64,000 nucleotides of DNA from Pyxidicoccus parkwaysis (GTDB lineage Bacteria; Myxococcota; Myxococcia; Myxococcales; Myxococcaceae): assembly GCF_017301735.1 (NCBI RefSeq), contig NZ_CP071090.1, forward strand, positions 11,267,001 through 11,331,000, in the 5' to 3' direction. The notes below the pieces were generated by a model that ran no database searches, had not been told where the DNA came from, and worked only from the letters and a program-made list of their open reading frames with translations. Both the position numbers and the translations under genes were made by a program. Each line of letters starts with the position of its first letter. Positions within the stretch are counted from its first letter, which is position 1. This document shows, one piece after another, positions 14,863 through 28,137 of this stretch.

Positions 14863-15042
14863 TCAGGCGTGCCGGTCCCAGATGCCACTGTGCTTCAAGA
14901 GGAACACACCTCCGCCCTTGATGGAACACAGCCTCAGGTCGTCCACGGAGAGGAGCACGCGGCAGGCGGTGTCCTCCATCCGCGTCCAAGCAGTGCCACC
15001 GGTGAGGGACGACTCCAGCCGTGCAAGCAGCCTCGTCCTCAC
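14863..15042 (-). CDS. small hypothetical protein coupled to the nucleotidyltransferase-fold gene
   Basis: A 59-codon frame starting with a GTG at 15042 that overlaps the stop of the preceding gene as GTGA, the usual layout of translational coupling. Third codon positions are mostly G or C. It would be the last gene of the third operator-controlled unit. The product has no recognised domain; it contains two short hydrophobic stretches (RVLLSVDDLRL, GGGVFLLKHSGIW). Moderate confidence because it is short. Confidence 0.45.
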   Translation of the reverse strand: MRTRLLARLESSLTGGTAWTRMEDTACRVLLSVDDLRLCSIKGGGVFLLKHSGIWDRHA

Positions 15043-17483
15043 TCGAACCGCGTGAGCTGCTCGCGCAGAATCATCAGCGTCTGCTTCAGCTCCTCCCGCC
15101 GGCCCCACTCCGTCGTCATGCCGGCCTCGTGCACGTACTCGCGGACGAGGTCCTTCAGGGACAGCACCGGCAGTCCCCAGATGAACGCCAGCTCCGGCCA
15201 CCACTCCCGGTCCACGGTGATGCGCAGCACCAGCGGGTGGTAGGCGAAGTGGCCCAGGTTCTCCTCCGCCGGCCAGAAGACCTCGAACGCGCCGTCCTCA
15301 CCGAGCTGCACCGCGAACGGAGGATTGGCCGGATTGGCCACATATGCCTGGAGCACCGGGCCAATCAGCGCGTCCCGCACCAGCGCGGGATTCACGTTGG
15401 ACCGCCGGCACGCCAGCTTCAGCTCGATGAAGCGCACCGGGTCCAGCGCCCGCTTCTGCGCGGGAGCCATCCCCGTGTAGTCCGCGTGCAGCCACGCCGC
15501 GCAGGCGCCGCCGATGGCGAACTGCACCTCCAATTCCTGCTCCTGCGTGAGCCCGAAGCCCGTGTACAGCGCGCGGATGAACTCCTCCAACTGCCGGCGC
15601 CTGCCCGCCTCCGCCGCGGTGGGCGGCTGCGCCTGACCGAAGCCGAAGAAGGCGGCCCGGTCCGCGAAGTGTCCCTCGAACAGGTTCGACAGCTTTTCGA
15701 ACAGCAGCAGCCACTGCAGCAGCTGCCCGTGCGTGTTCAGGTCGAACGCCCCCGCGCGGATGTCCTTCTCGAGGCCCTGGTCCACCGGGTCCGGGTAGGG
15801 AATGCGGCCGTACTCGTTCTGGAAGTCGAAGTAGAAGCGGTTGTCGAAGAGGGCGGCCAGGCCCGGGTCGCTCCACAGCGAGTACGCCTCCGCGAACTGC
15901 TCCAGCATCAGCACCAGCGTCCGGGACACGTACGGCGGCTGGTGGGGCTGGTCCACGACGGACAGCGCCAGCGGCAGCAGCCCGTCCAGCCCGAGCCGGG
16001 CCCGCGCCACCACCGCGTCCAGGTCCGTCGACGCCTGGCTGACGACGTCATACAGGCGCCGCAGCCGCTTGGAGGCCTTCTGCGGAGACGGTGAGCGGCC
16101 GGCGAACGCCTCGCGCACCATCGCCACGTACTCGTCGAAGTAGTAGCGGTGCCCTGGGATGGGGACGTCGTTGTAGTGGAGCAGGTCCGGGCCGGTGTGG
16201 TTCCACTGCTCGATGGCCTCCACCGAGTCGCGGCGGGGAATGCCGATGTCGATGAGCTCCGCCTTGCAGCTTCCCTGCTGCCCCGGGTCCTCCGGGTCCG
16301 TGAAGAGGTTGGCCACCTCCTCCAGCGCCTCGGGGTAGTTGAGCGGATGGGCCAGGGGCTTGCCGGCCATGGCGATGGCGACGTCGTTCGCGTTCGCCGT
16401 CACCAGCATGAAGAACTCCTGCTTGAACTGCCGCAGCTTGCCGAGCACGAAGTTGTGCACCTGGTTGAAGGTGGCGTACCAGTACTCGGCGGGCAGGCCG
16501 GGGTTGATGACGATGGAGGTGTCCCAGTCGTTCTCTCCGGTGTGCGGCACGTCGAGCAGGTACGCCTGCGCCCGGCCACCCTTCAGGTAGAAGATGACGT
16601 TCTCCTGGTTCGGGTCCATGGCCTGGAGCCCGTCGGCCAGCTCCACCATCTTGCTCCACAGCCAGGTGGACACCCACGCCATGTCCGGCCCGTTGTTGAG
16701 CAGGCCCGTCAGCTCCGAGCTGACGCGGGTCCGGTCGTCCCGGCTGACGCCCAGGTCGCTCACGACGCGGAAGGGCACCAGCAGCCGGAAGAGGTAGAAG
16801 CTGTCGATGCTGTAGAGCATCTGCACCTTCGCGAGCCCCTCCACGGCCCGCGTCAGCTCCGCCAGCAGCTCGTCCACCTGGTTGTGGAACAGGTTCACGA
16901 AATGGGCGGGAGCGACGGCGGCGTCCACGCCTCCCTGCAGGCAGGCCGCGATGAGGAACTCGACTCGCTGGAGGATGGGCACCTGGACGTTCCGCGTCTC
17001 CGCGTACGCATAGAAGCTCAGCCGCACCTCGTTCAGCTCCAGCAGCGCCGCGCGCAGGCGCTCCCGGAGGCGCTCCACGTACTGCGGGGTGACGAGGGCG
17101 GGAGCGGGAGGGTGGCTGACCTCTCCGCGCAGGGCCTCGAGCTGCCTCCGGGCGGCGTCGAAGCGCGCCACCGGCGAGGTGTCCTTCGGCGCCTCCTCGT
17201 TCTCTCGCAGCAGCTCCGGCTCCCACGCGTCGAACACGTAGAAGCGGTTGAGCGCGTCGAACTCCGCCTGCATCCGGGCCGCCGGGTCCGGAGCCTGCGC
17301 GCCCGCAGCGCGGACCACGCGCTGGGCCACCGTCTCCAGGCTCTGCATCGGGTGCACATCGCTGGAGGCCCAGCCGATGGCGCTGTCCGCCCGGGAGCCG
17401 AGCTCCACCAGACGCTCCGCGCGGTCGGTCGCCACCCGCGCGAGCTCCATCAGGCAATTCTCACCAGGGTTCGGCTGTGGCAT
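15039..17483 (-). CDS. large protein with nucleotidyltransferase-fold core
   Basis: A soluble 814-residue protein. The centre has the hallmarks of the nucleotidyltransferase (Pol-beta-like) fold: YLKGGRAQAY with K301-G-G, then ENDWDTSIVI with D319 and D321 as a metal-binding DxD pair on a strand, and AELIDIGIP with D412 as candidate third acidic residue. This order resembles KGG...DxD enzymes such as AbiEii-type toxins, although the flanking ~290-residue N-terminal and ~400-residue C-terminal regions are not recognised. GAGGAG precedes ATG at 17483. It follows the poly-Asn gene and the operator at 18261 and probably belongs to the R-body regulon. The substrate is unknown; the enzymatic assignment is my inference from motifs. 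Confidence 0.55.
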   Translation of the reverse strand: MPQPNPGENCLMELARVATDRAERLVELGSRADSAIGWASSDVHPMQSLETVAQRVVRAAGAQAPDPAARMQAEFDALNRFYVFDAWEPELLRENEEAPKDTSPVARFDAARRQLEALRGEVSHPPAPALVTPQYVERLRERLRAALLELNEVRLSFYAYAETRNVQVPILQRVEFLIAACLQGGVDAAVAPAHFVNLFHNQVDELLAELTRAVEGLAKVQMLYSIDSFYLFRLLVPFRVVSDLGVSRDDRTRVSSELTGLLNNGPDMAWVSTWLWSKMVELADGLQAMDPNQENVIFYLKGGRAQAYLLDVPHTGENDWDTSIVINPGLPAEYWYATFNQVHNFVLGKLRQFKQEFFMLVTANANDVAIAMAGKPLAHPLNYPEALEEVANLFTDPEDPGQQGSCKAELIDIGIPRRDSVEAIEQWNHTGPDLLHYNDVPIPGHRYYFDEYVAMVREAFAGRSPSPQKASKRLRRLYDVVSQASTDLDAVVARARLGLDGLLPLALSVVDQPHQPPYVSRTLVLMLEQFAEAYSLWSDPGLAALFDNRFYFDFQNEYGRIPYPDPVDQGLEKDIRAGAFDLNTHGQLLQWLLLFEKLSNLFEGHFADRAAFFGFGQAQPPTAAEAGRRRQLEEFIRALYTGFGLTQEQELEVQFAIGGACAAWLHADYTGMAPAQKRALDPVRFIELKLACRRSNVNPALVRDALIGPVLQAYVANPANPPFAVQLGEDGAFEVFWPAEENLGHFAYHPLVLRITVDREWWPELAFIWGLPVLSLKDLVREYVHEAGMTTEWGRREELKQTLMILREQLTRFE

Positions 17484-17519
17484 TGGCCTGCTCCTCGGGC
17501 GGCGGGACGTGGACCCTGC

Positions 17520-17804
<285 letters not shown>

Positions 17805-17843
17805 GGTGGACTCCGGGTGCGGGTGGGACGGGGCTTCGGAGGC

Positions 17844-18191
17844 TCATTCCCTGCGGGTGCTGGTTCCCCAGCGCACGCGCGAGGGCGGCGAGGCGGGGGT
17901 CGGCCGCGGCGCGGGAGGCGGAGGGGCGGGAGCTGGAGTCACGGTGGGCTCCGGGGGCGCGGTGGGCTCGGGAGGGGGAGCCGGCGCCTGCGTGGGGAGC
18001 AGCGTCGTTCCTGGCGGCACGCCCGTGAGCAACTCGCTCACGGGAAGCTCGCGCGCACGGAGCACCTTCGTGGCGGCCACGTCAGGCGCGGGCGGCGCGG
18101 GCGGCCGGGGTGTCGGGGTGGCACCCGTCTGTGGGGCCGCGGGCCCGGAGCGGCGCCGCTGTAGCAGTTGTCCCCAATTGATTCTCGCCAT
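17844..18191 (-). CDS. proline-rich hypothetical protein
   Basis: A 115-residue basic and Pro/Ala/Thr-rich protein, first in the third operator-controlled unit (the operator lies 69 bases before ATG 18191). The N-terminus MARINWGQLLQRRR looks like a short amphipathic helix; an ordered-looking patch is VLRARELPVSELLTGVPPG; the remainder is low-complexity proline sequence. No domain recognised. Possibly a linker or scaffold for its neighbours. Confidence 0.6.
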   Translation of the reverse strand: MARINWGQLLQRRRSGPAAPQTGATPTPRPPAPPAPDVAATKVLRARELPVSELLTGVPPGTTLLPTQAPAPPPEPTAPPEPTVTPAPAPPPPAPRPTPASPPSRVRWGTSTRRE

Positions 18192-18260
18192 GGGCTCATC
18201 CGTCCTTGTGCGGGCTCGTGACGTCGGCTTCAGCAGGGTGCGTCAGGCGTGTCTGTCATT

Positions 18261-18279
18261 CCATGGGCAATTCATTGAC
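18261..18279 (-). promoter_or_regulatory. palindromic operator, copy 3
   Basis: Minus-strand sequence GTCAATGAATTGCCCATGG, followed by AA. It matches the two R-body operators (23024-23042 and 25285-25303) at all but two positions and lies 69 bases before the next start codon, the same spacing as copy 1. It begins right after the stop of the HNH gene. Confidence 0.7.
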
Positions 18280-18299
18280 ACGCTTCAGGCCCGGTGTGC

Positions 18300-19730
18300 T
18301 CACACGGCGTTGAAGAGCGGAGTGAACTCGCCGGTCACGAACACGTTCCCCTTCTTGAAGAAGTTCCAGGGCGCGTTGTGCGCGACGAGCTCGCTCAGCG
18401 TCAGGTTCGCGCCGCTCTTCGTCACGATGCTCGTCTTGTCATCGCCCTCCGTCTCGAGGTTGACGGCGACGAACCAGCCATCGAGCGCGGCCTGGTCGAG
18501 CTCCTGGTCCTTCTTCACGTAGACGAGCCGCCGCACCTCCGTGGGCTTCGGGTCGTCGGGGCGGACGAGGTACATGATGCTGTCGTCCCCACTGAAGTCC
18601 GGCGTCGGCTCGGGTGGGGGCGGGACGGTGGCGATGAGGGTGTCGTAGCTGGCAATCCACCCGAATCGGTGCCACGGGGAGCCCTGCTGGGACATGGCCT
18701 GCCACGCGAGCAGGGCGTCCACCGAGGCCGACAGGTACTCCGGGGAGAAGGGGCCCGGGCCCGGGTTGGTGTACTGCGCCAGGGCCTGCTGGACGCCGGC
18801 CTGCTCCGTCCCCGTGATGAGGCTGGCCAGCAGGAGGGCTCGCAGCTGGCGGAGTTGTCCCGCACGCGCGCGGACGAGGGTGGCCCGGTTGAGCCCGAGG
18901 ATGTTGATGGTGGACGCACCTCGCGACAGGACGCCGGTCGCCATGGTCCGCTGCACCACCTCGTCAATCTTGTCGGGGTTGAGCAGGACGAGCGTGTTGA
19001 GGTCCTGCGGCGTGAGCGACACGCGCAGCACGTCGTACGGGTAGGCCTTGGCCGTCAGCGGGTTGAAGCGGATGAAGTCCCGAGGCTCCTCCGTGCCCGG
19101 GTCGATGAGCACCGAGGCATCCAGCGCCGTCGTCGCCGTCGCTCGCTGCGTCCCCGGCATGATGGGGAAGCGGTTGCCTTTGAAGGTCTCGTTGCAGATC
19201 TGACAGGCGAAGTAGAGGTTGTCCCAGTCGTAGGCGCACCAGTAATACGCCTCGGGCTGGAGCGCGTGGTCGAGCAGGTAGCCCGCCTTGGGGCGGAAGT
19301 GCTCCACGTCTCCGTGAGCGACATCCGTGAGCCGCGTCTCGCAGTAGGCGCACTTGCCATCCTGGCGGGTGACGAGCGCCTGCTTCAGGGGTTTGTTGGC
19401 GTAGAGCTTGGAGTCGAACACCCCCGAGCCGAAGCCCACGAGCGGCCGGACCGCCTGCACCCACGTCGCCTTGTGGTTGACCACCCAGTTCTCGACGATC
19501 TGCTGGCCGAAGACGACCTCCTTGAGGATGTTGTCCGGCACGCCTCTGCCGGACAGCCACTGCCGGATGTCGTTGGTCAGGCTGATGGGCCGGCCCGGGC
19601 CCAGCTTCTTCTCGAGCTCCGTGTAGGCAGCGACGAGGAGCTGGAAGGTCTGGGTGAGGAGCTGGGTCGCCTGCACCCGCTGTTCGATGCTCGAATCGGT
19701 GGGCTGCGGACCTTTGTTGAGTCGAATCAT
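18300..19730 (-). CDS. HNH endonuclease-like protein
   Basis: A 476-residue protein with an HNH/zinc nuclease core: CAYC at 127-130, VEHFRPK with E142-H143, and CQIC near 176-179 followed by NETFKGNRF. This arrangement resembles the HNH family (TIGR02646-type) found with Septu and retron defence systems, but no reverse transcriptase or PtuA-type ATPase is nearby. The C-terminal half is unassigned. ATG at 19730 is preferred because GGAGG lies 9 bases upstream; a GTG at 19739 is also in frame. It is last in the second R-body unit, so it may be a toxic cargo or an associated effector. Confidence 0.7.
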   Translation of the reverse strand: MIRLNKGPQPTDSSIEQRVQATQLLTQTFQLLVAAYTELEKKLGPGRPISLTNDIRQWLSGRGVPDNILKEVVFGQQIVENWVVNHKATWVQAVRPLVGFGSGVFDSKLYANKPLKQALVTRQDGKCAYCETRLTDVAHGDVEHFRPKAGYLLDHALQPEAYYWCAYDWDNLYFACQICNETFKGNRFPIMPGTQRATATTALDASVLIDPGTEEPRDFIRFNPLTAKAYPYDVLRVSLTPQDLNTLVLLNPDKIDEVVQRTMATGVLSRGASTINILGLNRATLVRARAGQLRQLRALLLASLITGTEQAGVQQALAQYTNPGPGPFSPEYLSASVDALLAWQAMSQQGSPWHRFGWIASYDTLIATVPPPPEPTPDFSGDDSIMYLVRPDDPKPTEVRRLVYVKKDQELDQAALDGWFVAVNLETEGDDKTSIVTKSGANLTLSELVAHNAPWNFFKKGNVFVTGEFTPLFNAV

Positions 19731-19810
19731 CGGACACACCTCCAGGGTGGCCTCGGAGCGAGGCGGGACCCGTCGAATTGGCCGGAGCGAGCTCCGTCGT
19801 CAGTGAATGC

Positions 19811-20896
19811 TCACGAGGAGCCGCGAGGCTTCGCGGCTCGCAGGCGTCCTTCCGCCTGGCGGATGTCGCCGACGAGCACCTTGTCGGCCTGGAGCAGCAT
19901 GGCGTGCTGCTGTCGCGTCATGTCTCGCAGGAGGCGCTCCTGCTCGGCCTTGAAGGAGTCGAAGGACGTGGGCTCCTGGCCCGGAGCCTGTGGCGCCGAG
20001 GGGGCACTCGCGGGAGGCGCGGGCGCGGTGGTAGCGGGACGCGCGGGCGGCTGCGCGGGAGCCGCCGAGGGAGGCGCGGGTGCGGTGGTGGTGGGACGCA
20101 CGGGCGGCTGCACGGGAGCCGCCGCGGCACCCGGAGGCGTCACCATGGGCGGCTGGACCATGGGCGGTGACGGCACCCTGGGAGGCTGCACCGTCGGCGG
20201 AGTGATGGACGGAGGCTGCACCGTCGGTGGAGTGACGGACGGAGGCTGCATCGTCGGTGGCGGCTGCACCGTCGGTGCAGTGACGGACGGCGGCTGCACC
20301 GTCGGCGGAGTGATGGACGGCGGATTCACGGAGGGCGGCCGCACCGTCGGTGGCGAGACGGCTGGCGGATTCACGGAGGGCGGCTGCACCGTCGGTGGCG
20401 AGACGGCTGGCGGATTCACGGAGGGCGGCTGTGCCGTCGGCGGCACGATGTTGGGCGGAGCCACGGAGGGCGGCTGTGTCGCCGGTGGCGCGATGTCGGG
20501 CGGAGCCACGGAGGGCGGCTGTGTCGCCGGTGGCGTGATGTCGTGCGGAGCCACGGAGGGTGGCTGCGCCGTTGGCGGCACGAGGTCGGGCGGCGTCACG
20601 GCCGGCGGCGTCTCCGTGGGCGCCACGAAGACCGGTGGTGATTCGCCGGAAGGCCGCGCCTGGGACGGAGCGGCCGCCGCGTCCCAGAACGGCGCCGGCG
20701 AGGCAACCACCGGGGCGGGCTGCATCACCACGTTGCCGCCCGCGGGCTTCCACGGCGGCGGCGGTGGCACATCCGGCGGCTGAAGGATGAGCCCCTCGTC
20801 GGAGAACGCGCTGCGCTCCTCACGGGCACTGGCCGCCACCAGTGACGCGAGCTGCCGGATGCGAGGGGACAGCCTGTGGGGTTGGCGTCTGCGCAT
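19811..20896 (-). CDS. proline-repeat protein
   Basis: A 361-residue protein whose middle (residues ~111-256) consists of QPPSVxPPxxxPPxx repeats, six of 15 residues followed by 10-residue versions, predicted to form an extended polyproline stalk. The N-terminus is basic and lacks a clear signal peptide. The C-terminal ~60 residues form a helical, charged segment (DSFKAEQERLLRDMTRQQHAML...). It starts 6 bases after the NUDIX stop codon, in the second R-body unit. It could be a spacer or tether; function unknown. Confidence 0.65.
   Translation of the reverse strand: MRRRQPHRLSPRIRQLASLVAASAREERSAFSDEGLILQPPDVPPPPPWKPAGGNVVMQPAPVVASPAPFWDAAAAPSQARPSGESPPVFVAPTETPPAVTPPDLVPPTAQPPSVAPHDITPPATQPPSVAPPDIAPPATQPPSVAPPNIVPPTAQPPSVNPPAVSPPTVQPPSVNPPAVSPPTVRPPSVNPPSITPPTVQPPSVTAPTVQPPPTMQPPSVTPPTVQPPSITPPTVQPPRVPSPPMVQPPMVTPPGAAAAPVQPPVRPTTTAPAPPSAAPAQPPARPATTAPAPPASAPSAPQAPGQEPTSFDSFKAEQERLLRDMTRQQHAMLLQADKVLVGDIRQAEGRLRAAKPRGSS
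20132..20566 (-). repeat. coding tandem repeats, 45-bp then 30-bp units
   Basis: DNA repeats encoding the QPPSV-type units of the proline-repeat protein. The six longer units are highly similar at DNA level, with third-position differences, so copy number may vary between strains. Confidence 0.75.
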
Positions 20897-20902
20897 GGCG
20901 GG

Positions 20903-21562
20903 TCAGGCCGGAGACGGCGATGGAGACGACGGCGGAGGAGGCTGCGCCGGCAACGCCGGAGCCTGCTGCGACGCCGCGAGCTCCTGGGGCGACGTGCCCG
21001 GCTGCAGCGTGTTGAGCAGCAGGTGCGCCACGGCCTTGGTGAAGACCTGATGCGACTCGTTGGCCCGGTGCCCGATGAGCTCCCGCGAGAAGCCCGCGTT
21101 GAGCGCGCGGACAATCTGCGTCGTCACCCACGGCAGGGACTGGTACTCCGGCTTGCGGCCGAAGCGGCCGAACGCCTGCTCCAATGACATCCACGCCAGG
21201 TTGTTGAACTTCATCGACTGCGCCCGGCCCTCTGTCAGCGCGGCGTTGGCCGCGGCCAGGTCGAGGTCCGGCGGGCTGGACGTCTGGAAGAACGAGACGT
21301 CCGAGCCCTCGGTGAACAGGGGCGTGAGGCTCGAGGTGGGAATCTTCACCCCGGTGTCCTCGAAGAACTCGCGCACCGCCGCGTCCTCGGGGCTCTCGCC
21401 CGCCTGCACGCGCCCTCCGGGGAGGATGTACTGGAGCGCGTTGCGCGGGATGGCCGCGTACTGGTAGCGCCCGTGTGGCGGCAGGAAGATGTTCTTCTGT
21501 CCCAGCAGCAGCTCGCACGTGCCATTGCCGGCGCGTAGGACCGCCAGATACGCGTGAGGCAT
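20903..21562 (-). CDS. NUDIX hydrolase-like protein
   Basis: A 219-residue protein with a Nudix box beginning GGRVQAGESPEDAAVREFF and ending EDTGV; it fits GX5EX7REUXEEXGU apart from E to D in the EE pair. NUDIX enzymes hydrolyse nucleoside diphosphates linked to another group. The C-terminal ~60 residues contain helices (QVFTKAVAHLLLNTLQ) and a Pro-rich tail. ATG at 21562 is chosen: AAGGAG lies 8 bases upstream, better than the GTG at 21568. It directly follows the Reb-like genes. A role tied to nucleotide signalling with the nucleotidyltransferase-fold protein is speculative. Confidence 0.8.
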   Translation of the reverse strand: MPHAYLAVLRAGNGTCELLLGQKNIFLPPHGRYQYAAIPRNALQYILPGGRVQAGESPEDAAVREFFEDTGVKIPTSSLTPLFTEGSDVSFFQTSSPPDLDLAAANAALTEGRAQSMKFNNLAWMSLEQAFGRFGRKPEYQSLPWVTTQIVRALNAGFSRELIGHRANESHQVFTKAVAHLLLNTLQPGTSPQELAASQQAPALPAQPPPPSSPSPSPA

Positions 21563-21584
21563 GTTCACTGCTCCTTGCGCCCCG

Positions 21585-21938
21585 TCAGGAGCCCGATGAG
21601 AACTTCTTCATGACGTTGGACGCCGCCGTGCCAATCTTCTCGAACGTCTCGCTGGCGCTCTGGAGGTTGGTGTTGAGGTCGGTCATCAGCGTCGTGTAGG
21701 TGGCGTCCTTGGTCTGCACGAGCTTCTCGATGCACACCGCCATGCCCGCCATGGTCAGCGCCTGGATGTTGCGCAGGTACGTGGTGGCGTCCTGCACGGC
21801 CATGCTGGCCGACTGCGAGACGGCCTCCTGCATCAGCCCCGTGCCCAGCAGCTGGGGTGCCGCCGGCGTGCCGCTGCCCGCCGCCGCCAGTTCGCTGCCC
21901 GAGCCACTCGCGCCATTCGTGTCGTCCGTGCCGGCCAC
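21585..21938 (-). CDS. R-body locus helical protein, family C, copy 2
   Basis: A 117-residue helical protein starting at GTG 21938 (GAGGAA upstream). It is a clear paralogue of the product of 23501-23944: both share VxDATxYLRN, LTxAxMAxC, KDxxYxxLM and TFExIGxxA. No known domain is recognised. In both Reb blocks this gene follows the short Reb-like gene, so it is probably a structural or assembly component of the R-body. Confidence 0.7.
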   Translation of the reverse strand: MAGTDDTNGASGSGSELAAAGSGTPAAPQLLGTGLMQEAVSQSASMAVQDATTYLRNIQALTMAGMAVCIEKLVQTKDATYTTLMTDLNTNLQSASETFEKIGTAASNVMKKFSSGS

Positions 21939-21964
21939 GTCGTTCCTCGCTCAGCCCGGCCCGC

Positions 21965-22189
21965 TCACTTGAGCAGGGCCATGATTTTCGTGGTGGCCAC
22001 CGCGAGCACCGCCTCGCCGATGCGCATCACGTTCTGCTGCGAGTTGACGGTGTTCTGCATGCCGAGGGCGAACACCTGCGCCTCGGCCTGGTAGAACATT
22101 CCCATGGCCACCGAGGCCGCCTCGCCCACCGTCGCCGAGACGGTGGTGGTCACCGCGTCGGTGACTTGAGGGTTCACTGTGTCCGCCAT
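21965..22189 (-). CDS. short Reb-like protein (family B), copy 2
   Basis: A 74-residue protein with the RebB-like opening VNPQVTDAVTTT and the sequence ASVAMGMFYQAEAQVFALGMQN, followed by a helix ending ATTKIMALL. It lacks the QGVALLYGVDTA end of the main RebB copies. Its closest relative in the window is 23977-24228. Probably an R-body subunit variant. Confidence 0.75.
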   Translation of the reverse strand: MADTVNPQVTDAVTTTVSATVGEAASVAMGMFYQAEAQVFALGMQNTVNSQQNVMRIGEAVLAVATTKIMALLK

Positions 22190-22272
22190 GACGCTCGTGC
22201 TCCTTCCTGGACCTGCTCATCCGGCGGTGCGCCGGGGGACTGGGATGGCTTTCTCGAGGACAGCCCGCGGGA

Positions 22273-22296
22273 AGATGGCGGGAGGGCCCGCCATCT
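22273..22296 (-). terminator. intra-operon hairpin after a rebB gene
   Basis: Perfect 10-base arms AGATGGCGGG and CCCGCCATCT with a 4-base loop, five bases past the stop of the rebB copy at 22302. Since co-directional genes continue, it may act as a partial terminator or mRNA-stabilising stem that raises the level of the upstream rebB messages. Confidence 0.5.
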
Positions 22297-22301
22297 CCGT
22301 C

Positions 22302-22607
22302 TCACGGGTAGGTGCTGGGGTACGCGGGCGGCTGCGTGCCGAAAATCTCCGAGATGCCCACCGACGTCGCCGCGGTGTCGACGCCGTAGAGCAGCGCCAC
22401 GCCCTGCGTGGTGGAGGCCTGGAGCACGGTGCTCGCGTTCTGCTGCGCCGCCGCGGCGACATGGGCGGCGTTGGCGACCGCGTTGGCGGTGGCCTGCATC
22501 AAATTGCCCAGGGCATTGCCCGGGCCGGTGCCGAGCACCTGGACGTTGGTCTGGGTGACGGCGTCGGTAATCTGCGGATTGACGATGGTGCTCGGAGTGG
22601 TGGCCAT
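22302..22607 (-). CDS. rebB: RebB-family R-body protein
   Basis: A 101-residue protein of the RebB ('killing trait') family. Conserved blocks are IVNPQITDAVTQTNV, GNALGNLMQATANAVANAAH, the QQNASTVLQASTTQG segment and VALLYGVDTA. Family members polymerise into R-bodies, coiled protein ribbons that extend sharply, as known from Caedibacter kappa particles. It has a short extra C-terminal Pro/Tyr tail (PPAYPSTYP). Second gene of the second Reb unit. Confidence 0.88.
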   Translation of the reverse strand: MATTPSTIVNPQITDAVTQTNVQVLGTGPGNALGNLMQATANAVANAAHVAAAAQQNASTVLQASTTQGVALLYGVDTAATSVGISEIFGTQPPAYPSTYP

Positions 22608-22666
22608 GCGGTGTTCCTCCCTGGGACTGTGGCTTCAGAGCTACGGGTGCGGGTGCGCGACGCCGG

Positions 22667-22945
22667 CTACTTCTGCGTGGCGAGGATTTCCACGATGCCC
22701 ACCGCCGTCGAAGACGTGTCGACGCCGTAGAGCAGCGCCACGCCCTGCGTGGTGGTGGCCTGGAGGATGGTGTTCGCGTTCTGCTGCGCCGTGGTGGCGT
22801 TGTGGGCGGCGAGCGCCATCGCCTGGGCCACCGACTGGAACAGCGAACCCATGGCCATGCCCGGCGCTTCGCCGAGAATCTTCACGTTCGTCTGGGTGAC
22901 GGCATCGGTGATGCTGGGGTTCACGATGGTGGCGGGGTCGGCCAT
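22667..22945 (-). CDS. rebB: RebB-family R-body protein
   Basis: A 92-residue RebB-family protein with IVNPSITDAVTQTNVKILG, APGMAMGSLFQSVAQAMALA, QQNANTILQATTTQGVALLY and GVDTSSTAVGI. It is nearly the same as the product of 24940-25215, showing recent duplication. First gene of the second Reb unit: the palindromic operator lies 78 bases upstream of its ATG, and AGAGGAAG serves as ribosome site. Confidence 0.9.
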   Translation of the reverse strand: MADPATIVNPSITDAVTQTNVKILGEAPGMAMGSLFQSVAQAMALAAHNATTAQQNANTILQATTTQGVALLYGVDTSSTAVGIVEILATQK

Positions 22946-23023
22946 GGCGCTTCCTCTCGGTTCAGCGGGTGGGTACGGCGTTGGGTAATGACAGACAGAT
23001 ATGGACTGCCGGGTGGGGGCAAT

Positions 23024-23042
23024 CCATGGTCAATTCGTTGAC
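23024..23042 (-). promoter_or_regulatory. palindromic operator, copy 2
   Basis: Minus-strand GTCAACGAATTGACCATGG, containing the perfect palindrome GTCAA-CGAA-TTGAC. It sits 1 base after the stop of the LuxR-type gene and 78 bases before the rebB start. It is identical over 19 bases to copy 1 and nearly so to copy 3. Likely a binding site for a dimeric regulator, perhaps one of the two local LuxR-type proteins. Confidence 0.75.
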
Positions 23043-23043
23043 C

Positions 23044-23481
23044 TCAGGGCCCGGGCTCAGGTCCCAGCCCGAGCGGCAGGCTGGTGATGAGCTCCGTGCG
23101 CGAGCTGACGCCCAGCTTCGCCATGGCCCGGCGCAGGTGCGTGGCCACGGTGGACTCGGTGAGCGCCAGGTCGTAGGCCATGGCCTTGTTGGAGAGGCCG
23201 CGCAGGGCGCACGTCACCACCTCGCGCTCGCGGGGAGACAGCGCGGCCACACCGCGCGCGGCGCCGCGCTCGCGTGCCACGAGGAAGCGCCGGCCGTCCT
23301 GCTCGAACCGGTCCACCAGCACCCAGCGCCCGGAGAGCACGCCCTCCACCAGGTCCCGCGTGCCATGAGGCGCCTCGTGTCCCTGCTCGAGCGTCATCAC
23401 CAGGGCGCGCGGCGGCGCATGAGGCGCGGGCACCTGGGCGTCCGCCTGTGTCTGCGTGGACTGCACGTGGGCCTCCGTCAT
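23044..23481 (-). CDS. LuxR-type HTH regulator of the R-body locus, copy 2
   Basis: A 145-residue regulator: the C-terminal half is a LuxR/FixJ-type DNA-binding domain (LSPREREVVTCALRGLSNKA, ESTVATHLRRAMAKLGVSSR). The N-terminal half lacks a receiver domain and is short and divergent (EQGHEAPHGTRDLVEGVLSG, WVLVDRF). It resembles the product of 25304-25660 in length and layout. It is the last gene of the first Reb unit and lies just before the operator of the second. Confidence 0.85.
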   Translation of the reverse strand: MTEAHVQSTQTQADAQVPAPHAPPRALVMTLEQGHEAPHGTRDLVEGVLSGRWVLVDRFEQDGRRFLVARERGAARGVAALSPREREVVTCALRGLSNKAMAYDLALTESTVATHLRRAMAKLGVSSRTELITSLPLGLGPEPGP

Positions 23482-23500
23482 GGGAATGGAATGGAAGGGG

Positions 23501-23944
23501 CTACGCCTTGTCCGGCGGCGGCGGCGGGTTGGACGGCGGAGCGCTGGGGGAGAAGAGGGAGAGGATGGTGGCGGCGCGCAGGCCGATGTCCTCGAACGTC
23601 TGGGCCGCCGCGCTGAGCGTCTGGTTCATCTGCCCCATGAGGTCGCCGTACGCGGGGTCCTTGCTCTGGAGCATGAGCTTCGTGCAGGCGGCCATGCTGG
23701 CCGTGGTCAGCGTGCCCACGCTTCGCAGGTAATTCGTTGCATCCGCCACGGCGGTGGCCGCCGCATGGGCGACCATCTCCTGGGCGAGCGCGAGCGCGGG
23801 CCTCTGCGCGGGTGGGGCGTCCGCCCTCAGCGGCGGCCGGGGAAACCCGGGCGACGAGGGCCCTCCGTCCACGCGGCGCAGCGTGGGCAGGCCGTTGCCG
23901 GGAGGCTTCGGGGACGGCGTCTCTGGATTCGCGTCGTTGGACAT
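23501..23944 (-). CDS. R-body locus helical protein, family C, copy 1
   Basis: A 147-residue paralogue of the 21585-21938 product, with a longer Pro-rich N-terminal extension, then VADATNYLRSVGTLTTASMA, KDPAYGDLMGQMN, TFEDIGLRAATI and a Pro tail. Function unknown; its position after the short Reb-like gene in both blocks suggests a conserved role in R-body formation. Confidence 0.7.
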   Translation of the reverse strand: MSNDANPETPSPKPPGNGLPTLRRVDGGPSSPGFPRPPLRADAPPAQRPALALAQEMVAHAAATAVADATNYLRSVGTLTTASMAACTKLMLQSKDPAYGDLMGQMNQTLSAAAQTFEDIGLRAATILSLFSPSAPPSNPPPPPDKA

Positions 23945-23976
23945 GGGGGCGGTGCCTCCTCGGTTTCAGGACCTGG

Positions 23977-24228
23977 TCACTTGCCGCCGTTGTCGTCGAG
24001 GGAGCGCATGATGCGGGCGCACGCGGCGGCAATCACCGCCTCGCCCACCTGCTGCATGCCCCGCTGGCCGGCGACGGCGTTCTGCATGGCCATGGAGAAC
24101 GCCTGCGCCTCCATCTGGAAGAGCATGCCCAGCGCCATCGACGTCGACTCGCCCAGGACGGTGGTGTTGGTGGTGTTGACGGCGTCGACGACCTGCGCAT
24201 TGACGGTGTTGGAAGAGTCGGAGGCCAT
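23977..24228 (-). CDS. short Reb-like protein (family B), copy 1
   Basis: An 83-residue protein with VNAQVVDAVNTTNTTVLGES, SMALGMLFQMEAQAFSMAMQ and a C-terminal helix AVIAAACARIMRSL. It shares the family-B pattern with 21965-22189 and is a divergent relative of RebB. It starts 8 bases after the upstream stop, in an operon. Confidence 0.75.
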   Translation of the reverse strand: MASDSSNTVNAQVVDAVNTTNTTVLGESTSMALGMLFQMEAQAFSMAMQNAVAGQRGMQQVGEAVIAAACARIMRSLDDNGGK

Positions 24229-24236
24229 GGGTGCTC

Positions 24237-24629
24237 TCAGCCGCGCTTCGCGGGCTTGGGGGAAGTGGAGGCGGAGGAGCGGCGCCGCTCCTTCGGGGGA
24301 ACCAACTGGAGGAGGAGGGCCGCGCCCTGGGCGGTGGTGGCCTGCAGCAGGGTGCTGGCGGCCGCCTGCTGCGTGGTGGCCTGCTGCGCGGCGAGCGCCA
24401 GGGCCTGGCTGGTGGCGAGGAAGTCCTCGCCCAGGGACATGGCGGGCGCCTCCGCCACCACCTGGACGTGGGTGGTGGTGACCGCGTCCGTCACCTGGGA
24501 AGCGACGTGCTTCCGGTCGCTCCGCTCCGGGCGCGGACGGCAGGGCTTGGGCGGCTTGTGCGGCTCGCGGTCGCCCCGGCGGCGGCGGCCGCTGGAGAGG
24601 TAGATGTCAATCTCCTCGTCACTCATCAT
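24237..24629 (-). CDS. divergent RebB-like protein with basic N-terminus
   Basis: A 130-residue protein. The first ~42 residues are charged (MSDEEIDIYLSSGRRRRGDR, Pro/Lys-rich), then a RebB-type core: VTDAVTTTHVQVVAEAPAMS, LGEDFLATSQALALAAQQAT, LLQATTAQGAALLLQL, ending in a basic tail. The VDTA segment is missing. Its start overlaps the stop of 24619-24894 (ATGATGAGTGA), so translation is coupled; ATG at 24629 or 24626 may be used. Confidence 0.7.
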   Translation of the reverse strand: MMSDEEIDIYLSSGRRRRGDREPHKPPKPCRPRPERSDRKHVASQVTDAVTTTHVQVVAEAPAMSLGEDFLATSQALALAAQQATTQQAAASTLLQATTAQGAALLLQLVPPKERRRSSASTSPKPAKRG

Positions 24630-24894
24630 CGGCTCCCGCGACGTGGTGGACCGAGGCCGCGAGCGCGGCCGTGTCCAAGGCAAACAGCGTGGTGATTCCT
24701 TGCAAGACCAGGGCATGTGACAGGACGCCCCCGTCCTGACTGAAGCGTGTCTGGGAATGGGCGGCGGTGGCGAGCGCCTGGTGCGTGGCGACGCTGAAGC
24801 CCGCCATGGCCTGCGCGGGCGAGCCGCCGAGCTCCAGGTCGGACCGTGGCGCCGGAGGCGCGGCGGAGGAAGGGCGGGTGGGGTGCTGCCGCAT
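24619..24894 (-). CDS. degenerate RebB-like protein lacking the N-terminal motif
   Basis: A 91-residue protein that aligns with RebB from the second motif on: SPAQAMAGFSVATHQALATA, a variant of QQN..., ALVLQGITTLFALDTAALAA. The usual NPQITDAVTQTNV opening is replaced by a Pro-rich stretch, so it may cap or modify R-body polymers rather than polymerise itself. It overlaps the next gene by 11 bases. Confidence 0.65.
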   Translation of the reverse strand: MRQHPTRPSSAAPPAPRSDLELGGSPAQAMAGFSVATHQALATAAHSQTRFSQDGGVLSHALVLQGITTLFALDTAALAASVHHVAGADDE

Positions 24895-24939
24895 GGGAGA
24901 ACCTCACCCGCCCGAGGTGCCGACCTCCGGCGTCCGGGG

Positions 24940-25215
24940 TTACTTCGAGGAGAGAATCTTGGCGATGCCCACCGCCGTCGACGCGGTGTCGACGCCGTAG
25001 AGCAGCGCCACGCCCTGCGTGGTGGTGGCCTGCAGGATGGTGTTCGCGTTCTGCTGGGCCGTCGTGGCGTTGTGGGCCGCGTTGGCCAGGGCCTGGGCGG
25101 TGGCCTGGTACAGCAGGCCCATCGCCATTCCCGGCGCATCGCCGAGAATCTTGACGTTGGTCTGCGTGACAGCATCGGTGATCTGCGGATTGACGATGAC
25201 GGCGGGGTCGGCCAT
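24940..25215 (-). CDS. rebB: RebB-family R-body protein
   Basis: A 91-residue RebB-family protein with all conserved blocks: IVNPQITDAVTQTNVKILGD, APGMAMGLLYQATAQALANA, QQNANTILQATTTQGVALLY, GVDTASTAVGI. It heads the first Reb unit; the operator lies 69 bases upstream of its ATG. With the 22667 gene it is the best match to canonical R-body subunits. Confidence 0.9.
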   Translation of the reverse strand: MADPAVIVNPQITDAVTQTNVKILGDAPGMAMGLLYQATAQALANAAHNATTAQQNANTILQATTTQGVALLYGVDTASTAVGIAKILSSK

Positions 25216-25284
25216 TGCGTGCCTCTCGGTGGCTGTGTTTCATGAACTGCGAGGGTGACTGTAGAGGGCTGTGTCTATTTCCTT

Positions 25285-25303
25285 CCATGGTCAATTCGTT
25301 GAC
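25285..25303 (-). promoter_or_regulatory. palindromic operator, copy 1
   Basis: Minus-strand GTCAACGAATTGACCATGG, identical to copy 2, immediately after the stop of the LuxR-type gene at 25304 and 69 bases before the first rebB start. Confidence 0.75.
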
Positions 25304-25660
25304 TCATGGATGGGTTTGCGGCGGCGCGCCGCGGCCCAATTGCAGGCGGATGACATGGATTGCCAGGTCCGCGCGCGAGGTGATGGACAGCTTCTGGTAG
25401 ATGGCCGCGAGCTGGTTGGCGACGGTGCGCACCGAGGTGCCCCGCGCGAGCGCGATGTCGCGGTTGGAGTCGCCGTGCAGCACGCGGCCGACGATGTCCC
25501 GCTCGGCGTTCGTGAGCTGGGGCAGCCAGGCGCCCAGGTCCAGCGGCAGGCTGACGACGGCGAAGACCTCGCCGTGGTGCCGCACCGTCCAGGCTCGGAC
25601 GTCAGCGGCTGAAGCGGGGAGGGCTGCGAGAGCATGCGAGGCCATTCGGAGACGCTCCAT
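25304..25660 (-). CDS. LuxR-type HTH regulator of the R-body locus, copy 1
   Basis: A 118-residue regulator with a LuxR-type DNA-binding domain in its C-terminal two thirds (LTNAERDIVGRVLHGDSNRD, GTSVRTVANQLAAIYQKLSI) and a short N-terminal segment (VRAWTVRHHGEVFAVVSLPL). No receiver or autoinducer domain. ATG at 25660 is one of several possible starts (GTG 25690, ATG 25645); none has a strong ribosome site. It precedes the first operator and is the probable master regulator of the three units. Confidence 0.82.
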   Translation of the reverse strand: MERLRMASHALAALPASAADVRAWTVRHHGEVFAVVSLPLDLGAWLPQLTNAERDIVGRVLHGDSNRDIALARGTSVRTVANQLAAIYQKLSITSRADLAIHVIRLQLGRGAPPQTHP

Positions 25661-25733
25661 CCCGGACGCTCGAGGCGGCACGGCCGCCACGGGTGCGCGG
25701 GTAATGGAGGACGGAATGGCTCAGGCGTTTGTG

Positions 25734-25763
25734 AATGACCCCGTCATGTCTCGGAAATGACCC
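25734..25763 (-). promoter_or_regulatory. two direct repeats upstream of the R-body regulator
   Basis: AATGACCC occurs at 25734-25741 and 25756-25763, two helical turns apart, in the 251-base gap 25661-25911 upstream of the LuxR-type gene. This could be a tandem activator site controlling entry into R-body expression. Nothing else is evident in the gap. Confidence 0.3.
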
Positions 25764-25911
25764 GGCATCGCGCGTCACCTGAGGCGTGTACCGGGCCCCG
25801 CACGGAGTCGGTGTGGCAGCGCCCCCGAGGCAGCGGACCTGCCAGGACGGGCGCGACGGATGGAGGGCGTCCCAGTTGCTGCTCGGCGCGGGCGCCCGGT
25901 CCGTCAGCGAA

Positions 25912-26658: not shown

Positions 26659-28137
26659 TCAGAAGAAGGCGCGCGCGCTCATCAGCGCACGCCAGTCGGT
26701 GGCGGAGAGCGCCAGCTCCCCGTACTTCCTGCCGCCCACCTCCACGCCGTTCAGCACGGGCAGCGGCACGTACGCGGCGGCGGTGAGCGTCAGCCAGTCG
26801 CGCGCCGACCAGCTCAGTGACGGGCTGAGCTGCCCGGAGAAGTCCCCCAGGCTCAGCACCAGCGACGCGCCCGCCGTGAAGTCGTCGTGAATCTGCGGCT
26901 TGCTGTAGCTGACGAAGAGGTAGTGCCGGCGCAGCGGGTCGAAGCTGTAGCGCTGCGGCGTCCCCGGGTCCGCGGACGTCCCGCCGCCCATCGCGCCCAG
27001 CACGCTGCCCGCCAGCGCCGGATTCAACCGCGCCAGCTCGCCCGCCGCGGCCAGCGTCTCCACGTAGCGGGCGAAGCCCGCCGAGTCCAACCCGTCCGCG
27101 CGGAAGTAGTACTCCGCCGACAGCATCGCGCTGTCCTCGAACTGGTACCGCGCCCCCGCGAGCACCTGCGGCCGCGGCTTCCCGTCGTGCAGGCGGGGAC
27201 GCGAGGCCAGCGCCACGTTGCGCGCCACGCAGTCCGCCAGCGCCTCCGCGCTGCCCGTACACGCGGGCTCCAACTCCAGCCGCGTGGAGCCCGTCTGGAA
27301 CACCGCCTCGCCGTGGACCTCCAGCGCACCGAAGACGCGGGACGCGGACAGTCCCAGCCGGTGCTTGTGCGTGAAGGCGTCGTTGTAGAGGTGCGTGAAG
27401 GCATAGACGAGGTTGAAGTCCGTGTCCGCCACCAGCGCGTAGGCGCGAGCGGCCACCGCGTAGTGGGCCTCGTCGTCGCGGTCATCCGGCACCAGTCCCT
27501 GCTGGGCCTCCGCCGTAGGCTGGTCCGGGTAGACGAGCAGCGCGGTGGGCAGGCCCGCGTACTGCCGCAGCACCTTGGCCGCGCCCACGACGGAGAAGGT
27601 GAACCTGTCATAGGGCAGCTCCACCCGCGCCAGCCACGCGCCCGCGCGCTGCGCCGCCGGGTCCGTGGGGTCCTTGGGCGGATTGAGGAAGTCCATCGGG
27701 TTCTGCGCGAGGCCGGGGCCCCACACCACGCGCTTCTTTCCCACGGTGAGGCTCAGGTGCTGCGTCAGCGCCACGTCGCCGTACAGCTCGCTCACCACGA
27801 TGGAGGGGCGGTACTCGGGCAGGTCCTTCTCCACGCCCTCGATGAAGCCGGTGCGCTGCCAGAAGAGGGACACGTCCGTGTTGACGAAGGCCTCGGGCGT
27901 GAAGCGCAGCTTGAGCTGGAGGTTGCCCTCCGTGAGGTTCGTCAGCGCGGGCTGGCCCTCTCCGGGGGACAGGCGCTCTGAGAGGATGCGCGCGTAGGTG
28001 AAGCGGCTGTCGAGGTAGCCCGTCGTCGTCACCTCCAGCGACGGGGACGGCTCGGCCGTGGGGGCGTCCTCGACGGGCGCCTGCGAGAGGAAGGCGGCGG
28101 TGAGCAGCGAGGGGAGCAGGGGCATCATGGCGCGCAC
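26659..28137 (-). CDS. predicted outer-membrane beta-barrel protein
   Basis: A 492-residue exported protein (signal peptide ending FLSQAP; GTG at 28137 keeps an Arg in the n-region, ATG at 28128 is an alternative). The mature protein alternates polar and aromatic residues in strand-like segments (VTTTGYLDSRFTYARI, LSLTVGKKRVVWGPGL, YLFVSYSKPQIHDDF) and ends in Phe, as expected for porin-like barrels. It shares an operon with the ABC system and may be its outer-membrane component. Confidence 0.7.
   Translation of the reverse strand: MRAMMPLLPSLLTAAFLSQAPVEDAPTAEPSPSLEVTTTGYLDSRFTYARILSERLSPGEGQPALTNLTEGNLQLKLRFTPEAFVNTDVSLFWQRTGFIEGVEKDLPEYRPSIVVSELYGDVALTQHLSLTVGKKRVVWGPGLAQNPMDFLNPPKDPTDPAAQRAGAWLARVELPYDRFTFSVVGAAKVLRQYAGLPTALLVYPDQPTAEAQQGLVPDDRDDEAHYAVAARAYALVADTDFNLVYAFTHLYNDAFTHKHRLGLSASRVFGALEVHGEAVFQTGSTRLELEPACTGSAEALADCVARNVALASRPRLHDGKPRPQVLAGARYQFEDSAMLSAEYYFRADGLDSAGFARYVETLAAAGELARLNPALAGSVLGAMGGGTSADPGTPQRYSFDPLRRHYLFVSYSKPQIHDDFTAGASLVLSLGDFSGQLSPSLSWSARDWLTLTAAAYVPLPVLNGVEVGGRKYGELALSATDWRALMSARAFF

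Follow-up and report, generated by a model that had tools for sequence, protein, structure and literature searches.

An inserted R-body-type locus in Pyxidicoccus parkwaysis with a shared operator ahead of ribbon genes and predicted enzyme genes

R-bodies are spring-like protein ribbons that kill paramecia. Here we describe an R-body-type (reb) locus of the myxobacterium Pyxidicoccus parkwaysis, located in a 64,000-nucleotide stretch of its 13.2 Mb genome (assembly GCF_017301735.1, contig NZ_CP071090.1, positions 11,267,001 to 11,331,000 of the forward strand), hereafter referred to as the window, to which all coordinates refer. The locus spans ∼15039-25690 and consists of two reb blocks (reb-1 and reb-2), each headed by a LuxR-type regulator gene, and a third unit encoding an 814-aa protein (Table 1). 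An initial annotation had placed its limits at 21585-25660, which is too short, as the reb-2 operon reaches 18300 and the third unit 15039; the NUDIX, Pro-rich, HNH and 814-aa genes that it did not report are part of the same inserted unit. The genes that it named were all found at the positions given, on the minus strand. A related cluster in the Myxococcales genome MAG-81 (JAEUJY010000165; L042/L131) served for comparison throughout.

Table 1. Coordinates, strand and supporting evidence for the features of the R-body locus and of the segment that carries it.
Feature	Coordinates	Strand	Evidence or remark
LuxR1, single-domain GerE regulator	25304..25690	-	PF00196 35.9 bits; MAG-81 counterpart E 1.5e-20
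Operator 1, GTCAACGAATTGACCATGGA	25284..25303	-	directly after LuxR1 stop, 69 bp before A1
A1, RebB protein	24940..25215	-	PF11747 102.2 bits
A2, divergent RebB protein without QITD region	24619..24894	-	PF11747 40.0 bits, profile positions 13-68
A3, divergent RebB protein	24237..24629	-	PF11747 54.7 bits; start inferred from sequence
B1, short RebB protein	23977..24228	-	PF11747 66.0 bits; tree
C1, C-family Reb-derived helical protein, Pro-rich N-terminus	23501..23944	-	C-family model 146 bits; hhalign to Reb; tree
LuxR2, GerE regulator	23044..23481	-	PF00196 60.9 bits; MAG-81 counterpart E 5.9e-30
Operator 2, identical to operator 1	23023..23042	-	directly after LuxR2 stop, 78 bp before A4
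A4, RebB protein	22667..22945	-	PF11747 101.1 bits
A5, RebB protein	22302..22607	-	PF11747 78.8 bits
B2, short RebB protein	21965..22189	-	PF11747 52.9 bits
C2, C-family protein, predicted two-helix hairpin	21585..21938	-	C-family model 123 bits; AlphaFold mean pLDDT 81.6
NUDIX hydrolase	20903..21562	-	PF00293 46.6 bits; 22 bp after C2
Pro-rich repeat protein, possible adaptor	19811..20896	-	Pro-rich reading frame at same place in MAG-81
HNH nuclease (predicted), PtuB fold plus C-terminal domain	18300..19730	-	full-length member of family recurrent in reb loci
Operator 3, two mismatches	18260..18279	-	69 bp before 115-aa Pro-rich reading frame
Small Pro-rich protein, 115 aa	17844..18191	-	reading frame downstream of operator 3
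Small 94-aa protein, poly-Asn N-terminus	17520..17804	-	homologue in MAG-81 phospholipase D unit, E 6e-20
814-aa nucleotidyltransferase-like protein	15039..17483	-	KGGRA...DWDT...ELID motif; homologues at reb clusters, lowest E 9e-97
Inserted or replaced segment holding the whole R-body locus	14979..25911		absent from sister genomes G113 and G127
3' remnant of resident gene, left segment edge	14863..14973	-	∼37 C-terminal codons conserved with sister gene

A hidden Markov model (HMM) search with the RebB family (PF11747), which the initial annotation had proposed, returned seven window proteins above the gathering cutoff of 24 bits, with scores from 40 to 102 bits and all encoded within 3.3 kb, where a cluster was defined by at least three grouped RebB-family genes. 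These comprise the RebB proteins called earlier at 24940, 22667 and 22302, the divergent relatives called at 24619 and 24237, and both short Reb-like genes at 23977 and 21965; the B genes are therefore themselves members of the RebB family. Sequence motifs of structural Reb proteins (QITD, Q-rich) occur as NPQITDAVTQTN and AQQN in A1 and A5, and as NPSITD in A4. The start of A3 is most likely the ATG that overlaps the A2 stop, as read from the sequence. No other RebB match was found in a search of the whole genome, nor any in 14 control genomes, and no solved structure of a RebB relative was found. A RebB gene is also present in a record titled as a Bifidobacterium breve metagenome-assembled genome (L118), which is probably a mis-binned contig.

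The second helical family, C, had been reported at 23501 and 21585, and this pair proved to be homologous (phmmer E 8e-20) and Reb-derived, with no Pfam match for either protein. Alignment of profiles by hhalign joined the C family to Reb families with probabilities of 95.0 and 96.8 (E 4e-8 and 3e-10), and in the C relatives of G126, G061 and G064 the C core is still preceded by a Reb N-terminus. AlphaFold predicted a confident two-helix hairpin in C2 (residues 27-76 and 80-113, predicted local distance difference test, pLDDT, ∼97); C is thus a Reb-derived two-helix protein. In the comparison set, which consisted of 80 Reb loci of other genomes drawn from genome contigs by similarity to the A proteins, a C-family gene was present in 63, usually as the last Reb-like gene, and the C of Azospirillum brasilense (L112) fits HP1.2 of Raymann's Group 1 in size and order (PMC3583457). 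Its recurrence, Reb kinship and hairpin make C a conserved component of R-body clusters and no stray helical protein, an assignment that is new, and the window cluster is genuinely of R-body type because C recurs in this way. Seven RebB hits, the presence of C and a gene order shared with reb clusters of several phyla together support the original reading as an R-body-type locus.

A repeat search found an identical 20-mer, GTCAACGAATTGACCATGGA (minus strand), at reb-1 and reb-2, following each LuxR gene and corresponding to the operator that the initial annotation had named, with a core formed by the inverted repeat GTCAA-N4-TTGAC. Across the genome there were three sites with up to two mismatches, all in this locus, and one further site with three. 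The operator precedes three adjacent units, namely both reb blocks and the 814-aa unit, and the reb-2 block extends past C2, with NUDIX, Pro-rich and HNH genes following in the same orientation after gaps of 22, 6 and 80 bp, respectively. The sister genomes G113 and G127, which are without the locus, had no operator site with up to two mismatches. MAG-81 had four, all within its reb locus: before A of reb block 1, before its A-A-B-C-NUDIX unit, before a phospholipase D unit and 33 bp ahead of a phospholipase C-type phosphoesterase gene. The operator-binding protein is presumably LuxR1 or LuxR2. An operator-defined regulon that ties ribbon genes to enzyme genes is, in our reading, a new feature of R-body loci.

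Both regulators match the GerE/LuxR helix-turn-helix family, as the initial annotation had held, yet are only distantly related to one another (E 7.7e-4, 32% identity), each being nearer to its own MAG-81 counterpart. The two blocks are unequal in make-up (A-A-A-B-C and A-A-B-C), with identities of 85% between A1 and A4, 51% between B1 and B2, and 38% between C1 and C2. Phylogenetic trees, a check suggested with the annotation, placed C1, C2 and the single C of MAG-81 in one clade (100/99) and B1, B2 and the MAG-81 B in another (100/91), within which B2 was sister to the MAG-81 B (99/95) and B1 fell outside. Based on the B tree and the LuxR counterparts, the two-block design is therefore older than the split of the window and MAG-81 lineages. 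The proposed duplication of the whole module thus holds in part: B1 is paralogous to B2 and C1 to C2, and the operator is present at both blocks, but the blocks are no simple copies of each other. The duplication of A, B and C is real, old and unequal, and the trees of B and C, together with the divergence of the LuxR proteins, led us to reject a recent tandem duplication of the entire block.

The locus lies in a segment that is missing from two sister species. The window aligns with G113 and G127 at 90-91% nucleotide identity until 25912, the stop of an ABC gene, and alignment resumes below ∼14978 at 84-85%; both sister species present an empty site without the ∼10.9 kb segment. The resident gene at this site encodes 322 aa in G113 and G127 and is truncated in the window. 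The sister alignments flanking the empty site indicate, therefore, that ∼10.9 kb was gained as one unit, from LuxR1 to the 814-aa gene. The upstream neighbour (26659-28137) is carried by only two members of the genus, G113 and G127. Vertical inheritance of the cluster within the genus was rejected, since RebB was found in two of 27 genus genomes (the window's and G126) and the G126 cluster is of another type. A phage origin was likewise rejected, as a scan of viral contigs gave a single weak partial match.

Among the enzyme genes of the segment, NUDIX membership is clear from PF00293 (cutoff 21.1 bits) and from a Nudix box, GRVQAGESPEDAAVREFFEDTG, in which ED replaces EE, and a counterpart with 49% identity occupies the same position in MAG-81. 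The predicted HNH nuclease keeps the CxxC, H147, N174 and CxxC residues. Its model (medium confidence, pLDDT 64.5) matched the retron PtuB over HNH residues 4-348 with Z 16.8 across 194 residues, the next unrelated fold reaching Z 3.9; this match came from VIA-align alone, Foldseek on the full model being uninformative (E > 0.7). Scores against the curated PtuB families were below cutoff (NCBIfam 54.8 vs 150 bits; TIGR02646 42.7 vs 52.15), and the protein is therefore a relative, not a member, of PtuB. No PtuA ATPase partner adjoins it, its neighbours being the Pro-rich gene, the NUDIX gene and the 814-aa unit. PtuB of Retron-Eco7 and Septu cleaves tRNA-Tyr (PMC11555353, PMC13096335).

Homologues of the HNH protein that align over its full length, including the C-terminal domain, lie beside reb clusters in Vibrio, Shewanella, Pseudoalteromonas, Alteromonas, Sessilibacter and others, amounting to 16 of the 80 Reb loci in nine genus-level groups. 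The family was present as one copy per genome, at the reb locus, in 14/14 genomes checked, the exception being a second, broken copy at a second reb locus of one genome. Across 248 genomes of one order (six have Reb), it occurred only in the reb-bearing genome at the centre of the comparison and in none of the 247 others. Outside reb loci, full-length homologues at L144:7400-10258 and L145:8720-11015 have a LysM-like/peptidoglycan-binding protein as their partner, a layout suggestive of an effector and its adaptor.

For the 814-aa protein no Pfam match was found, nor any match of its family profile in the PDB, so the nucleotidyltransferase call rests on a GG...DxD...D signature read by eye (KGGRA, NDWDT and ELID, kept in five of eight family members and degenerate in three). 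Homologues were found in 14 of the 80 loci, in Alphaproteobacteria, Roseomonas, Azospirillum, Hydrogenophaga, Methylibium and Xanthomonas. In other myxobacteria (L158:5157-9992, L160:7123-11178) the family is fused to a C-terminal segment in which a likeness to papain-like cysteine proteases was seen by eye, with no Pfam match. The poly-Asn tract that starts the neighbouring 94-aa protein is encoded by a CAACAA repeat at 17748-17800. The operator-preceded phospholipase C of MAG-81 (L131:8193-10400) begins with a ∼75-aa domain weakly similar to this 94-aa protein (E 4e-4 to 9e-3), possibly a domain for payload targeting.

Enzyme genes of these kinds recur at reb loci well beyond the myxobacteria. 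At least one of five enzyme families was found beside 44 of the 63 loci with C vs none of the 17 without it (Fisher p 8e-8), and in 22 of 31 genus-level groups. A GH25 lysozyme was present in 13 of the 80 loci; in 19 reb genomes, some of them chosen for having GH25, there were 13 GH25 genes at reb loci vs nine elsewhere. Other reb loci carry GH24 plus a C39 peptidase, an Rv2525c-type glycoside hydrolase, a phosphoesterase or NUDIX. R-body clusters and their wide spread were already known (PMC3583457, PMC13430693). The 2013 survey by Raymann listed non-Reb neighbours as hypothetical proteins (PMC3583457) and a 2026 survey set them aside, such that neither analysed them as enzymes. In a search without most subscription journals, we found no paper linking R-bodies to HNH nucleases, lysozymes or phospholipases, and we regard the linkage with interchangeable enzymes as new.

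We consider it reasonably probable that the segment 15039-25690 was acquired horizontally and is an R-body regulon whose enzyme payloads are interchangeable. Assembly of R-bodies, operator binding, and secretion and toxicity of the payload are predicted from the genes. LuxR1 and LuxR2 would bind the operator and switch on all three units together, probably in few cells, whereupon the A proteins would form the ribbon by polymerising, and B, A2/A3 and C would have minor roles in its assembly or capping. The payload would consist of the HNH and 814-aa enzymes together with their Pro-rich partners. Extension of the R-body may then break the cell inside a grazing predator (gut or vacuole) and set the two enzymes free, in the manner of the kamikaze model for PA14 (PMC8322103). 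The enzyme slot would be interchangeable, MAG-81 having phospholipases D and C and a GH25 lysozyme in that place. More tentatively, and with somewhat less than even confidence, R-body clusters in general may be toxin-delivery systems, in which a conserved ribbon module (Reb, C, HP1.1) is joined to a variable cassette of a Pro- or Gln-rich adaptor and an HNH nuclease, a nucleotidyltransferase-like protein, a phospholipase C or D, or a lysozyme.

Several observations weigh against these proposals. Relatives of the HNH and of the 814-aa proteins are present in reb-free myxobacteria, so neither family is exclusive to R-bodies and both are better described as effector-like modules; the nucleotidyltransferase motif is degenerate in the Azospirillum and Roseomonas relatives. 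No immunity gene was recognised at the locus, consistent with a device that only a few, dying cells would use. The ∼360-aa HP1.1, present in 60 of the 80 loci, was not found in the window locus with an HMM of 11 HP1.1 proteins, nor in L131 (MAG-81) or L032-L034, so the cluster was not filed as Group 1. A palindrome-constrained repeat search for a shared operator in other reb types gave none that was convincing. Furthermore, counts over the 80 loci are not fully independent, and the GH25 count carries the selection mentioned above.

The alternative that retains most credit, although we think it unlikely, is that of an ordinary R-body locus in which the NUDIX, HNH and 814-aa genes are passengers, or form a neighbouring defence island, and arrived by chance with the same insertion. 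The HNH domain does score with PADLOC PtuB defence models (1e-50), and PtuB-like domains are common in myxobacteria, whose genomes hold many such genes. However, the genes follow C2 closely on the same strand, a third operator stands before the 814-aa unit, the NUDIX and Pro-rich order is kept in MAG-81, and full-length HNH, 814-aa and GH25 families recur with reb clusters in other phyla. It is improbable, in our judgement, that the locus is a suicidal anti-phage system, where infection would trip the LuxR switch, the PtuB-fold nuclease and nucleotidyltransferase would stop translation, and the R-body would act as a device for lysis or abortive infection. The PtuB fold, the tRNA targeting by PtuB of Retron-Eco7 and Septu, and the nucleotidyltransferase-like motif would suit this, but the locus has no PtuA ATPase or reverse transcriptase, the NCBIfam PtuB score is far below its cutoff, lysozymes and phospholipases at other loci fit attack or release better, and known R-bodies act on eukaryotic hosts (PMC8322103, PMC5527310). 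Lastly, there is little chance that the enzymes serve self-lysis and clean-up that release R-bodies and are not toxins on a target: many reb loci have GH25 or GH24 lysozymes, but the window locus has none, a nuclease and nucleotidyltransferase are of no obvious help in release, and the pairing of HNH kin with LysM-like proteins outside reb loci looks effector-like.

The regulon with enzyme payloads, if correctly read, bears on the toxin of the killer trait, which has been described as unknown (PMC7297999, PMC13430693). An operator that the genome otherwise lacks connects the ribbon genes with genes predicted to encode a nuclease and a nucleotidyltransferase; at the corresponding place a relative has phospholipases, and members of other phyla have nucleases or lysozymes. 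The toxin question becomes a short list of candidate genes, and polymorphic payloads would, if true, identify the long-sought class of killer-trait toxins. The locus may also provide an R-body weapon to a social predator on which protists and nematodes graze in turn.

Reb clusters of other types were also noted. A longer type, with six to nine Reb genes and two C types, was found in Myxococcaceae G126, G061 and G064 (L032:6486-10108, L033:6948-10958, L034:10300-14206); a GH25 lysozyme lies near the cluster in two of them, G126 and G064, and G126 has a patatin phospholipase as well. In two-gene mini-clusters (L036:6126-7104, L035:8500-9500), a RebB protein is followed by an extended one, in which a Pro/Ala linker joins a helical N-terminal part to a C-terminal half that is Reb-like; in several Archangium genomes (L039, L040) the extended protein occurs by itself.

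Among the systems nearest to the window locus, the cluster of MAG-81 shares LuxR1-A-A', LuxR2, the A-A-B-C-NUDIX-Pro-rich order and the operator; it differs in having a single B and C, and where the window encodes the HNH and 814-aa proteins it carries phospholipases D and C and GH25. Group 1 clusters (PMC3583457), e.g. that of Azospirillum brasilense, likewise have several RebB proteins, a short distant Reb (HP1.4, of about the size of B) and a 110-120 aa partner at the C position, whereas the window locus differs by its two-block layout, its LuxR regulators and shared operator, and a regulon that also takes in NUDIX, HNH and 814-aa genes. The reb cluster of Pseudomonas aeruginosa PA14, whose R-body genes are needed for cleavage of host ribosomes (rRNA), also combines structural genes of the RebB family with accessory proteins and regulators of its own, but differs in its RcgA/FecI2 control and RapA, with no HNH or nucleotidyltransferase described (PMC8322103). 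The rebABCD genes of Caedibacter taeniospiralis encode RebA/B/D family proteins as well, and a toxin has been supposed but not identified there; unlike the window, the locus is on a plasmid, RebC is known only from it, and these papers report no linked enzymes of the window kinds (PMC3583457, PMC7297999). The PtuB nuclease of retron Ec78/Septu shares the predicted fold and CxxC-H-N-CxxC signature with the window HNH protein, which differs in scoring below the family cutoffs, in an extra C-terminal ∼130 aa and in having no PtuA or reverse transcriptase partner. At L076:8599-10089, HP1.1 has an N-terminal eCIS_core domain (PF13699, 32.5 bits), and by eye L045, L058, L059 and L095 look similar, which could link R-bodies to contractile injection systems. 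The logic of R-body clusters with payload cassettes would be comparable to that of the effector cassettes of type VI secretion systems or extracellular contractile injection systems.

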